This document shows positions 18,784 to 21,163 of a DNA stretch of 64,000 bases, one piece after another. The translations under genes and the position numbers were made by a program. The stretch is from Saccharospirillum sp. GTDB lineage: Bacteria > Pseudomonadota > Gammaproteobacteria > Pseudomonadales > Natronospirillaceae. The DNA lies in assembly GCA_022565595.1 (NCBI GenBank), contig JAIUML010000016.1, positions 1 through 64,000 of the forward strand, given 5' to 3'. Each line of letters starts with the position of its first letter. Within the stretch, counting starts at the first letter, position 1. Below the pieces are notes generated by a model. That model was not told the DNA's origin and made no database searches. It was given only the letters and a program-made list of their open reading frames with translations.

Positions 18784-18811
18784 CTTGCACCTCGACAACG
18801 CCGAGATCTCG

Positions 18812-21163
18812 TTAATTATTACCGTCCTGCAGGAACTCGACTTTCAGGTTCCGGTAGGAGACTTTGTCGTCCTTTGTTTGGGCGGCGGTGTCGTCGTCCA
18901 GGCTCAGGGTAACGCTGTACTCGGGCTCGCTCTCCCAGGAGGTACCTGTGGCTTCAGTGGCACCGTTGGTCATCATTTCGGCGGCCATGGACCGGTAGTT
19001 ATCCTCGTAGAGTATGTCGTCGTTGGTCACTTCAGCCGTTGCGTCGCTGCCGACATCCAGTGCAGTGCCGCCTTCAGCGAATTCGATTTCGTACTCGCCA
19101 GTCTCTGGATACAAGATGAAGCGGTCACCGTCGTTGAGGAAATGGGTCACGACGTCGCGCACTTCGAAGGGCGCTTCCTGGAGGATGTGAGCCGAGGCCA
19201 TATCCACGATGTAGACGCCGTTCTCGCCAGTTACCTGCATGACGACTCTTGTTGCTTCATCTTCGGCTTCAACTTTGGCGACGTTCAGGGCGGTTGTTTC
19301 GTCAACACCGAAACCGAAGCGGACATCGGCATGAGCCAACAGACGGATCAGGCGGCCTTCACGAGCGCGCTCGGAGAAGTGGGTATCGACCACACCCCAG
19401 GGGAAGGTCTCTATACCACCGGTCGCTTCGTGGTTATTCGCGGTGAAGCCATTAACCAGAATGCCGTGGCTGGAGCCAGCGGTGATCATGGGGTTGGTGT
19501 TGCCGTTGTCGGCCAGGCCACCACTTTGTACCGCGGCACCGGCAGAGGTACCACCGACGACCAGGTGTCCATCCTGTTGACGAGACTGAATGTGCAGCAG
19601 TTCGGCACTGTCGATACGCAGATCAGAGTCGAAGCTGACCAGGGCGTCAAAGGTGCGTACCTGGTCGCCGCCGTTGATGAAGACACCATGGGCGTTTTCG
19701 ATCAGGTCAGCAACGCCCTGTTCGCAGGCCTGAAGGTGTGCCTGGAAGTAGTCCGGGTAGAGTTGATCGAGGTGGGGTACAGCGGCAAAGTCGCTGTGAT
19801 AAGCCGCCAGCCAGTCGCACTGATTGCTGTCTCTGGCCTGACGATAGGCGCGATCCACCGGCAACCATTGAGCGGTAGCACCCAGTTGCTCGAAAATACC
19901 AACGTAGTAGTCTGCTACGGCATAGCTGTCTGCCGAGGAAGAGGTCATCACCAGGATGTGTGGCGTTTCGTCGTCGGCGGCATCGCGTGCCTGATCAACA
20001 AAGGCCTGGTAGATCGCTACGGCGTCAGCGTTGGCGGTATCGTCTACGGCGACGTATTCGATGGCACGTTCGTAATCTTCAAGGTCGATCAGGAGGATTT
20101 CCAGCAATTTGAAGCGCACCAGGCTGGGCAGGCTGTTCCAGACTTGCAGGCCATTTTCGAAGCCATCGGTCAGCAGAGTACTTCTGAAGGCTGTGCGGAA
20201 ATCATTGAAGCTCCCATAGTCGACTTCTGCATTGTCTTCGAGCAAGGCATCCAGCACGAGCAGCACGCCGGCTTTGTTTTCATCGCTCTCCCAGGTGGCG
20301 GCATCCAGGTCTGCAATCACTGCTGCATCGACCACATAGCTGTTGTCTTCGACAGTATCTACGAGCAAATCCCAATCCGCATTGCTCAATTCATCATTCC
20401 AGAGTGCAGTGCCATCCGCCAGGGTTTCACCTTCGAGCGCTACGGCTGCCATGGCGTCCAGCAGTTCATCAGGAGTCAACGAATCAGGAGAAACAAGATC
20501 GGCAATGACATCGGAAATGACTTGCTGTTCTTCTGTCAAAGTTTCTTCAGGCAGGCCGTCGATCAGGCTGGTAACCGTTGTAGCTTTGGCTGAAGTGACT
20601 TCATAGTTCAAACGCTCATCAGCTTTTTTCAAGCCTTCAAAGGTTCCATATTGAGCTGAAGTACTGTCGAACCAGATGACATCACCGTCAATATCTTCTG
20701 GTAGACCGGCAACATCCTCATTGGCTACGCCAATAAAGGCGGAACGGAAGTCCTGCCAATCAGGGTACTCAGCTACACCCTCATCGAGAATCTGATCTCT
20801 CAGGTAATTCAAAATCAATTCGACGCCTGTTTTAAAATCAGGATCACTTTCCCAGGCAGGATCATTCACCAGTGTAGAGATCTTTTGCTCTGACAACTCA
20901 ACGGGTTCTGATACCGCTACAGCGACATTCGCTTCGGCATCGCCATTGGCAGCCCACCAGGTATCCCAGTCGTTACAGGCCGATTGCACCACACTGGAAC
21001 AAACACTGGTGGCGCCACCAACCAATTGGCTGCGCAGGCTAAGTTCGATGGATGCTTCGTTGATCGGGTCTGACCCGTTACCATTATCCTGTTCACAGCC
21101 GGCCAAAAAACCGGCGCATAGCACGGCCGTGCCCCATTTCAGGGACGTCTTTAATTTATTCAT
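18812..21163 (-). CDS. Cyanophycinase-like (peptidase S51) lipoprotein
   Basis: Encodes 783 residues. A lipoprotein signal ends in LAGC (Cys23). The C-terminal half (about 400-650) is a cyanophycinase/S51-like serine peptidase domain: GVFINGGDQVR, nucleophile Ser540 in VVGGTSAGAAVQS, DTHFSERAREGRL and GFGVDETTAL. Cyanophycinases cleave cyanophycin (beta-Asp-Arg polymer) to dipeptides. The N-terminal 380 residues are acidic and contain a duplicated module (about 100-143 and 285-327), each with a WESD motif, a hydrophobic helix and a DFR(S/T)AF motif. The product would be anchored outside the cytoplasmic membrane, so it would act on external or periplasmic substrate. No cyanophycin synthetase is in the window; the substrate is inferred. 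Confidence 0.82.
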   Translation of the reverse strand: MNKLKTSLKWGTAVLCAGFLAGCEQDNGNGSDPINEASIELSLRSQLVGGATSVCSSVVQSACNDWDTWWAANGDAEANVAVAVSEPVELSEQKISTLVNDPAWESDPDFKTGVELILNYLRDQILDEGVAEYPDWQDFRSAFIGVANEDVAGLPEDIDGDVIWFDSTSAQYGTFEGLKKADERLNYEVTSAKATTVTSLIDGLPEETLTEEQQVISDVIADLVSPDSLTPDELLDAMAAVALEGETLADGTALWNDELSNADWDLLVDTVEDNSYVVDAAVIADLDAATWESDENKAGVLLVLDALLEDNAEVDYGSFNDFRTAFRSTLLTDGFENGLQVWNSLPSLVRFKLLEILLIDLEDYERAIEYVAVDDTANADAVAIYQAFVDQARDAADDETPHILVMTSSSADSYAVADYYVGIFEQLGATAQWLPVDRAYRQARDSNQCDWLAAYHSDFAAVPHLDQLYPDYFQAHLQACEQGVADLIENAHGVFINGGDQVRTFDALVSFDSDLRIDSAELLHIQSRQQDGHLVVGGTSAGAAVQSGGLADNGNTNPMITAGSSHGILVNGFTANNHEATGGIETFPWGVVDTHFSERAREGRLIRLLAHADVRFGFGVDETTALNVAKVEAEDEATRVVMQVTGENGVYIVDMASAHILQEAPFEVRDVVTHFLNDGDRFILYPETGEYEIEFAEGGTALDVGSDATAEVTNDDILYEDNYRSMAAEMMTNGATEATGTSWESEPEYSVTLSLDDDTAAQTKDDKVSYRNLKVEFLQDGNN

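Follow-up and report, generated by a model that had tools for sequence, protein, structure and literature searches.

Cyanobacteria produce the nitrogen-rich polymer cyanophycin, which is open to scavenging by other bacteria. Already in print, in the parts of the papers cited here, are secreted cyanophycinases, namely, the extracellular CphE of Pseudomonas anguilliseptica and P. alcaligenes (CphEal), an S51-type enzyme with a Ser-His-Glu triad (PMC3235067); clusters of a cyanophycinase gene with iadA and a transporter gene, as in the cyanophycin utilization locus (Ben Hania et al., cited in PMC10206079); a TonB receptor encoded close to a cyanophycinase gene, reported for Citromicrobium (PMC3400609); and a secreted putative cyanophycinase of Pseudoalteromonas, that of P. 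tunicata, proposed to serve nutrient scavenging (PMC2536512). The intracellular counterpart is CphB (3EN0, 7UQW; location as given in part of PMC10206079). Cyanophycinases with an added domain occur in the cyanobacteria-associated bacteria Balneolaeota strain Omega and Salinivirga, where the extra part is a Por secretion system domain (the relevant part of PMC6243061), in contrast to the repeat inserted within the catalytic fold that is described below. In the portion of PMC8880816 that deals with a cyanobacterial soda-lake consortium, which includes members close to Natronospirillum operosum, a species isolated from decaying cyanobacterial biomass, cyanophycinase is reported in six members of various phyla.

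The gene that we analyzed (18812..21163, minus strand; all features given below lie on this strand unless indicated otherwise) is located in a window of 64,000 nucleotides, which is the whole stretch of Saccharospirillum sp. DNA under study. The open frame runs from an ATG at 21163 to a stop codon ending at 18812 and, as supported by its translation and by homologs in 54 named loci, encodes a 783-aa protein. The original prediction, an extracytoplasmic cyanophycinase-like lipoprotein, is backed by both sequence and fold although curated cut-offs were missed (see below). The predicted lipobox, LAGC, is indeed present at the end of a signal peptide, with Cys23 as the putative lipidated residue (residues 1-23; 21095..21163; judged by eye and by pattern). 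Both this protein and CphE carry an export signal, which, in the present case, is apparently of the lipoprotein type; CphEal, the product of a 1260-bp gene, has a cleaved Sec signal (in the part of PMC3235067 used here), and CphE is an uninterrupted single-domain enzyme of about 420 aa, whereas the window protein contains a nested insert of about 315 aa that comprises three units. CphB, in turn, shares the catalytic fold (Z 29), the triad and the binding residues with the window protein but is a shorter single domain that lacks both the insert and the export signal and has Gln rather than Thr before the catalytic His. Downstream of the part that matches CphB, the window protein has a C-terminal extension (residues 697-783; 18815..19075). 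A 420-aa cyanophycinase-like paralog in another genome (G003, locus L012) matches residues 480-759 of the query and thus reaches into this extension. A 602-aa frame on the plus strand (18785-20593) is antisense to the gene and was taken as a shadow frame. The scan for promoters and terminators yielded counts near those for shuffled sequence (3 vs 2.2 and 5 vs 3.2), and a search of PHROGs produced no matches.

A search for relatives with the single protein yielded none; with an alignment, loci were found, and the best 80 of 121 were examined. From these, 54 named loci were used, which together with the window protein make up a gammaproteobacterial alignment of 55 rows (A3). Left out were 21 loci whose similarity to the catalytic part was weak (L111-L131), three loci that run off their contigs (L072, L084, L085) and two with incomplete frames (L060, L106). 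Because relatives were selected by the pattern GG followed by C[SGTA][SD], the invariance of Gly49, Gly50 and Cys55 is partly by choice, yet none of the complete frames tested failed the pattern. Cys63 is not part of this pattern, unlike Cys55, and both cysteines are present in 55/55 rows (Cys55-Cys63 segment, 20975..21001), suggestive of a possible disulfide. Full-length relatives are encoded in 7/22 genomes of the family, the window's own genome included; in one of these seven genomes, the match is split in two. Within the class sample, 14 of the 369 genomes have any match at E <= 1e-10 and three, counting the window's, a match over most of the model length. Among plasmids, 24 records match by tblastn, none of them reaching 80% query coverage.

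The catalytic part shows clear affinity to cyanophycinases without reaching the curated thresholds. The match to TIGR02069 (cyanophycinase) covers residues 388-658 (E 9.8e-28) and scores 97.3 bits, below the cut-off of 126.6, and PF03575 (S51 peptidase) scores 19.6 against a cut-off of 23.9; we therefore label the protein cyanophycinase-like rather than equivalog. TIGR02069 matches all 55 aligned sequences at E <= 1e-5, and the solved relatives detected by sequence at the same threshold are three distinct chains, all named cyanophycinase. The AlphaFold2 model of the window protein (mean pLDDT 88.1, pTM 0.84) indicates that the catalytic part has the cyanophycinase fold: when aligned with VIA-align, model residues 43..696 superimpose on CphB (7uqw_B, a 263-residue chain) with Z 29.1 and rmsd 2.0 A over 256 residues, followed by 3en0_B (Z 29.0) and 7uqv_A (Z 27.6), then dipeptidase E and other peptidases (Z 13.5-19.8), with all remaining rows at 4.4 or less. 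Foldseek gives E 2.5e-13 for the match of the model to 7uqw_A. On the strength of the VIA-align match, the portion that follows the insert (residues 379-696; 19076..20029) was delineated as the rest of the S51/cyanophycinase catalytic domain.

The triad and the binding residues are fully conserved. In alignment A3, Gln501, Ser540, Asp593, Thr594, His595, Arg599, Arg601, Arg604, Asp621 and Glu622 are invariant in 55/55 rows, and these include the catalytic and binding positions of CphB and CphE named in the part of PMC3235067 considered here. Gln501 belongs to the substrate-site motif GGDQVR (19655..19672; GGDQLR in CphB). Ser540, the predicted nucleophile within GGTSAG, was found as claimed originally and aligns with the GTSAG motif of 3en0 (19538..19552). 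Asp593, His595 and the three arginines are located in DTHFSERAREGR (19352..19387), which aligns with DQHFHNRNRMAR of CphB, and Asp621-Glu622, with the third member of the triad, aligns with GIDEDT (19298..19303). The original prediction called for Ser-His-Glu geometry in the model; at the level of sequence, the putative triad and the Gln, Asp and Arg binding residues align with those of CphB, with which the overall fold also agrees. Compared via published residue numbers, CphE shares with the window protein the binding-pocket residues (Gln, Asp and three Arg), a Thr before the catalytic His (Thr594 here, in place of Gln173 of CphB) and a similar spacing of the triad: Ser-to-His and His-to-Glu distances along the chain are 55 and 27 in the window protein and 53 and 27 in CphEal (numbering from part of PMC3235067). 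In CphB, the Ser-to-His spacing is 42, provided that its His is the residue after Gln173.

The fold by itself is no guarantee of activity given that one of the solved relatives, 7uqv, is titled pseudo-CphB. A protein that binds the polymer as a lipoprotein and performs no catalysis accordingly has to be considered, and there is a candidate precedent: a 787-aa paralog in a Reinekea-like genome (G020, L018:838-3201) retains a 326-residue insert and all four conserved cysteines and has lost Ser540, His595 and Glu622, so that it is likely a pseudoenzyme. However, the window protein and 54/54 selected relatives keep every catalytic residue, and we regard loss of catalysis in the window protein as very improbable.

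The protein contains a mostly helical block of about 315 residues (approximately 64-378). The original prediction placed the acidic modules N-terminal to the catalytic domain; as seen in the model and the VIA-align superposition, they are instead nested within it, after the first beta-strand. This strand (residues 40-50, with LVGG; 21014..21046) is modeled at residues 40-48, and because the match to CphB begins at model residue 43, aligned with chain residue 7, and so includes it, the catalytic fold is interrupted by the helical block. The similarity between the two predicted copies of a WESD...DFR(S/T)AF module exceeds chance, but the copy number had to be revised: there are three tandem units, A (residues 84-189; 20597..20914), B (residues 190-274, a diverged middle copy; 20342..20596) and C (residues 275-375; 20039..20341), with the middle one detectable only with profiles and the model. 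The borders of the units were chosen by eye. Units A and C are recognizably similar as single sequences (Smith-Waterman score 68, maximum of 55 in 2000 shuffles) and as profiles (42.7, with 0/100 column shuffles as high). Unit B is invisible from the single sequence (728/2000 shuffles score as high for A-B and 851/2000 for B-C) and is revealed by its profile match to C (20.2, 0/100 shuffles as high); the A-B profile score was not significant in the first run (7.0, 7/100 shuffles as high) and was just above the shuffled maximum in a second run (15.7 vs 14.9 in 60 shuffles). A profile of 45 one-unit inserts matches each of the three units (A 22.9, B 32.9 and C 43.9, the last over 98 columns; 0/60 shuffles as high in each case), and in the AlphaFold2 model, compared by helix order, each consists of five helices in the identical order. 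Together, the profile scores and the model show three tandem five-helix units, predicted to interrupt the catalytic domain after its first beta-strand. In the two-unit proteins of Vibrionaceae, the second unit (V2) matches unit C and the one-unit profile, with no match to A (25/60 shuffles as high), B (4/60) or V1 (7/60).

Folded alone, the insert is predicted with pLDDT 89.0 and pTM 0.67 (G010's protein was not used in the structure predictions). Searches among solved folds with the insert gave a best Foldseek E of 2.1 and a best VIA-align Z of 4.2 over 72 residues; this lack of a close solved fold does not prove a new one. In an insert alignment of 51 of the 55 rows (A5; L088, L093, L097 and L103 were omitted as their close relatives were already included), no Pfam family was found in more than 2/51 members at E <= 0.1, and the best E, 0.0025, was in one member. 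Among the matches listed in the open literature, titles and abstract openings contained no description of a nested, copy-variable helical insert; the scavenging enzymes described in the cited parts of PMC3235067, PMC2536512 and related reports carry no such insert, and for P. tunicata, whose genus includes one-unit relatives, neither insert nor repeats are mentioned in the cited part of PMC2536512. Among the S51 peptidases, the repeat is apparently undescribed. When searched against the class sample, the insert alignment matches 3/369 genomes at E <= 0.001: the window's genome, a genome (G401) with a 596-aa frame that also matches the whole alignment, and one with a 1169-aa frame. We take the last, which by eye reads as a transcription-repair coupling helicase, to be a chance match.

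The strongly acidic character ascribed to the N-terminal part holds for the window protein, with 78 Asp and Glu against 15 Lys and Arg in residues 24-387 (net -63). Such acidity might point to an affinity for cyanophycin, which is rich in arginine. The net charge of the insert is between -0.145 and -0.198 per residue in the window protein and five Saccharospirillum, Natronospirillum and Reinekea relatives, and positive in 10/10 Pseudoalteromonas rows. Accordingly, the acidic insert was rejected as a family-wide trait for binding of a polycation, the strong charge being confined to the window protein and its relatives in these three genera.

Unit number varies among the 55 aligned sequences (the window and the 54 loci from the best 80 of 121): 45 have one unit, five have two and five have three. 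The Cys63-Pro401 stretch spans 122-160 residues in 45 rows and 337-355 in five others, the window's among them; in between are four rows from Vibrio and Photobacterium (229 residues) and the S. impatiens row (246 residues). When the catalytic parts were placed in a tree together with six outgroup rows that lack the insert, all ten multi-unit rows clustered in a single group (100/96). Within it, the two-unit protein of S. impatiens (L054:7848-9962) is sister to a three-unit row (100/99) and is nested among three-unit rows. Its insert is 106 residues shorter than that of its sister (224 vs 330), and the missing segment begins in unit B and ends roughly at the corresponding position in unit C. 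This is an apparent case of the loss of one whole helical unit between equivalent points of B and C.

Neighboring genes were called as frames by script within at most 8 kb on each side of the gene, clustered by BLAST (E <= 1e-10, at least 50% query coverage) and given NCBIfam names via the cluster representatives only. In the 54 named loci (again, from the best 80 of 121), the IadA cluster is represented in 36, the TonB-receptor cluster in 35 and the YfcC-like cluster in 32; all three are nearby in 26/54 loci, and at least one in 42/54, counts that the early ends of some contigs could only have lowered. The representatives in L065 exceed the NCBIfam cut-offs for IadA (490.4 bits) and YfcC (710.1 bits); its TonB receptor has hits to several receptor models and passes none of their cut-offs. 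Both IadA (296.7 vs a cut-off of 331.25, in a 294-aa frame) and YfcC (246 vs 500) fall below in L058, the sole Vibrio locus with neighbors scanned. On a plasmid of Pseudoalteromonas shioyasakiensis, annotated iadA, yfcC and TonB-dependent receptor genes adjoin a cyanophycinase. The relatives of the window gene, like the cyanophycin utilization locus as outlined in part of PMC10206079, are often accompanied by iadA and a transporter, to which they add the TonB receptor, a link already noted for Citromicrobium in the part of PMC3400609 used here. The window gene is not accompanied by partners of this kind: none of the three clusters is found near the window gene or near any of the other five Saccharospirillum, Natronospirillum and Reinekea loci, and the neighbors of the window gene and of three or four of these loci are housekeeping genes, for example, dnaB, mqo and a permease (named by eye). 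IadA above the cut-off is encoded on another contig of the window's genome (G000; C9:67352-68515), in which no match to YfcC and no match to the PF01112 isoaspartyl aminopeptidase were detected. Within the family, IadA above the cut-off is present in 6/7 genomes with the gene and in 8/15 without it and, therefore, does not trace the gene.

We consider it probable that the protein, a serine peptidase of the S51/cyanophycinase type, is secreted, anchored by a lipid and used to scavenge cyanophycin from outside the cell, with the insert holding or orienting the polymer or spacing the enzyme from the membrane. The frequent location of the one-unit genes beside the TonB receptor, the YfcC antiporter and IadA supports cyanophycin scavenging; the missed TIGR02069 and PF03575 cut-offs, the lack of partner clusters near the window gene and the failure of IadA to track the gene speak against it. 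Under the scavenging scenario, the protein would be exported by Sec, lipidated on Cys23 and anchored in the outer membrane. Judging from residue identity with CphB and CphE, Ser540, His595 and Glu622 would cut the poly-aspartate backbone, and Gln501, Asp593 and Arg599/601/604 would bind the terminal beta-Asp-Arg unit. The resulting beta-Asp-Arg dipeptides would be taken into the cell and presumably split by IadA, encoded elsewhere in the genome, into Asp and Arg.

The same catalytic mechanism could, however, serve a beta-aspartyl peptidase with another substrate, for example, isoaspartyl peptides or oligomers in decaying protein. The scores under the cyanophycinase cut-offs and the location of the window gene outside a scavenging neighborhood are compatible with such a role, as is the variability of position 503, which is Arg in the window protein and, across the 55 rows, is divided among Leu (24), Arg (23), Lys (five) and Phe (three). 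Furthermore, IadA and IaaA are promiscuous (stated in part of PMC10206079), and so the presence of IadA does not name the substrate. Nevertheless, 55/55 rows retain the residues that are reported to be critical in CphB and are also present in CphE, the fold match to CphB is far above that to dipeptidase E, and the YfcC neighbor is named as a putative basic amino acid antiporter, which fits the release of arginine. On balance, a different substrate appears unlikely, and scavenging of cyanophycin remains the preferred interpretation.

With regard to the insert itself, the original suggestion was that the modules may bind a polymer or cell surface. The loop after the first beta-strand should, as we assume from general knowledge of such alpha/beta folds, lie on the active-site side, so that the insert would most likely serve as an arm or lid to hold the insoluble polymer, or as a spacer between the membrane and the tethered enzyme. 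A bolder and tentative proposal, for which we claim limited confidence, is that the insert represents a helical repeat fold not described before, in which whole units are gained and lost within the beta1-alpha1 loop of a cyanophycinase, and forms a polymer-gripping arm, through which the tethered enzyme would attack insoluble extracellular granules; its grip or reach would be tuned by how many units it contains. Alternatively, the units might be only a membrane spacer or an arm for docking to a partner, making no contact with the polymer; one-unit enzymes would then dock to the TonB receptor, and the multi-unit enzymes, which have no such neighbor, would be lipoproteins. This division is mirrored in the data: TonB-receptor neighbors occur in 35/45 one-unit loci compared to 0/9 multi-unit loci, and the lipobox pattern is found in 9/10 multi-unit rows vs 2/45 one-unit rows, although in the latter two (L083, L110), by eye, no plausible signal peptide ends at the pattern. 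However, because the multi-unit rows form one clade, the correlations of unit number with lipobox and TonB receptor each amount to a single independent contrast, and we deem a role without polymer contact rather unlikely. The secreted enzymes of this family, whose genes often have uptake and dipeptidase genes as neighbors, provide a natural series of one, two and three units for the study of insert function.

Finally, turnover of a store of its own is an unlikely role for the enzyme, given that no cyanophycin synthetase above the cut-off is encoded in the window's genome; among 57 genomes, such a synthetase was found in one (G017). In that genome (L033, L010, L019), a plain 273-aa cyanophycinase-like frame adjoins the synthetase, and a second synthetase-like frame is present as well. 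On the contig of the window gene, about 51 kb past the gene and outside the window, a short stretch (C16:72539-72835, or L025:8539-8835) is similar to cyanophycin synthetase in its C-terminal ligase portion: it scores 74.1 bits to TIGR02068, has 31% identity to the CphA of G017 (E 6.5e-9) and contains an in-frame TGA. It may be what is left of a synthetase gene that has since been lost.
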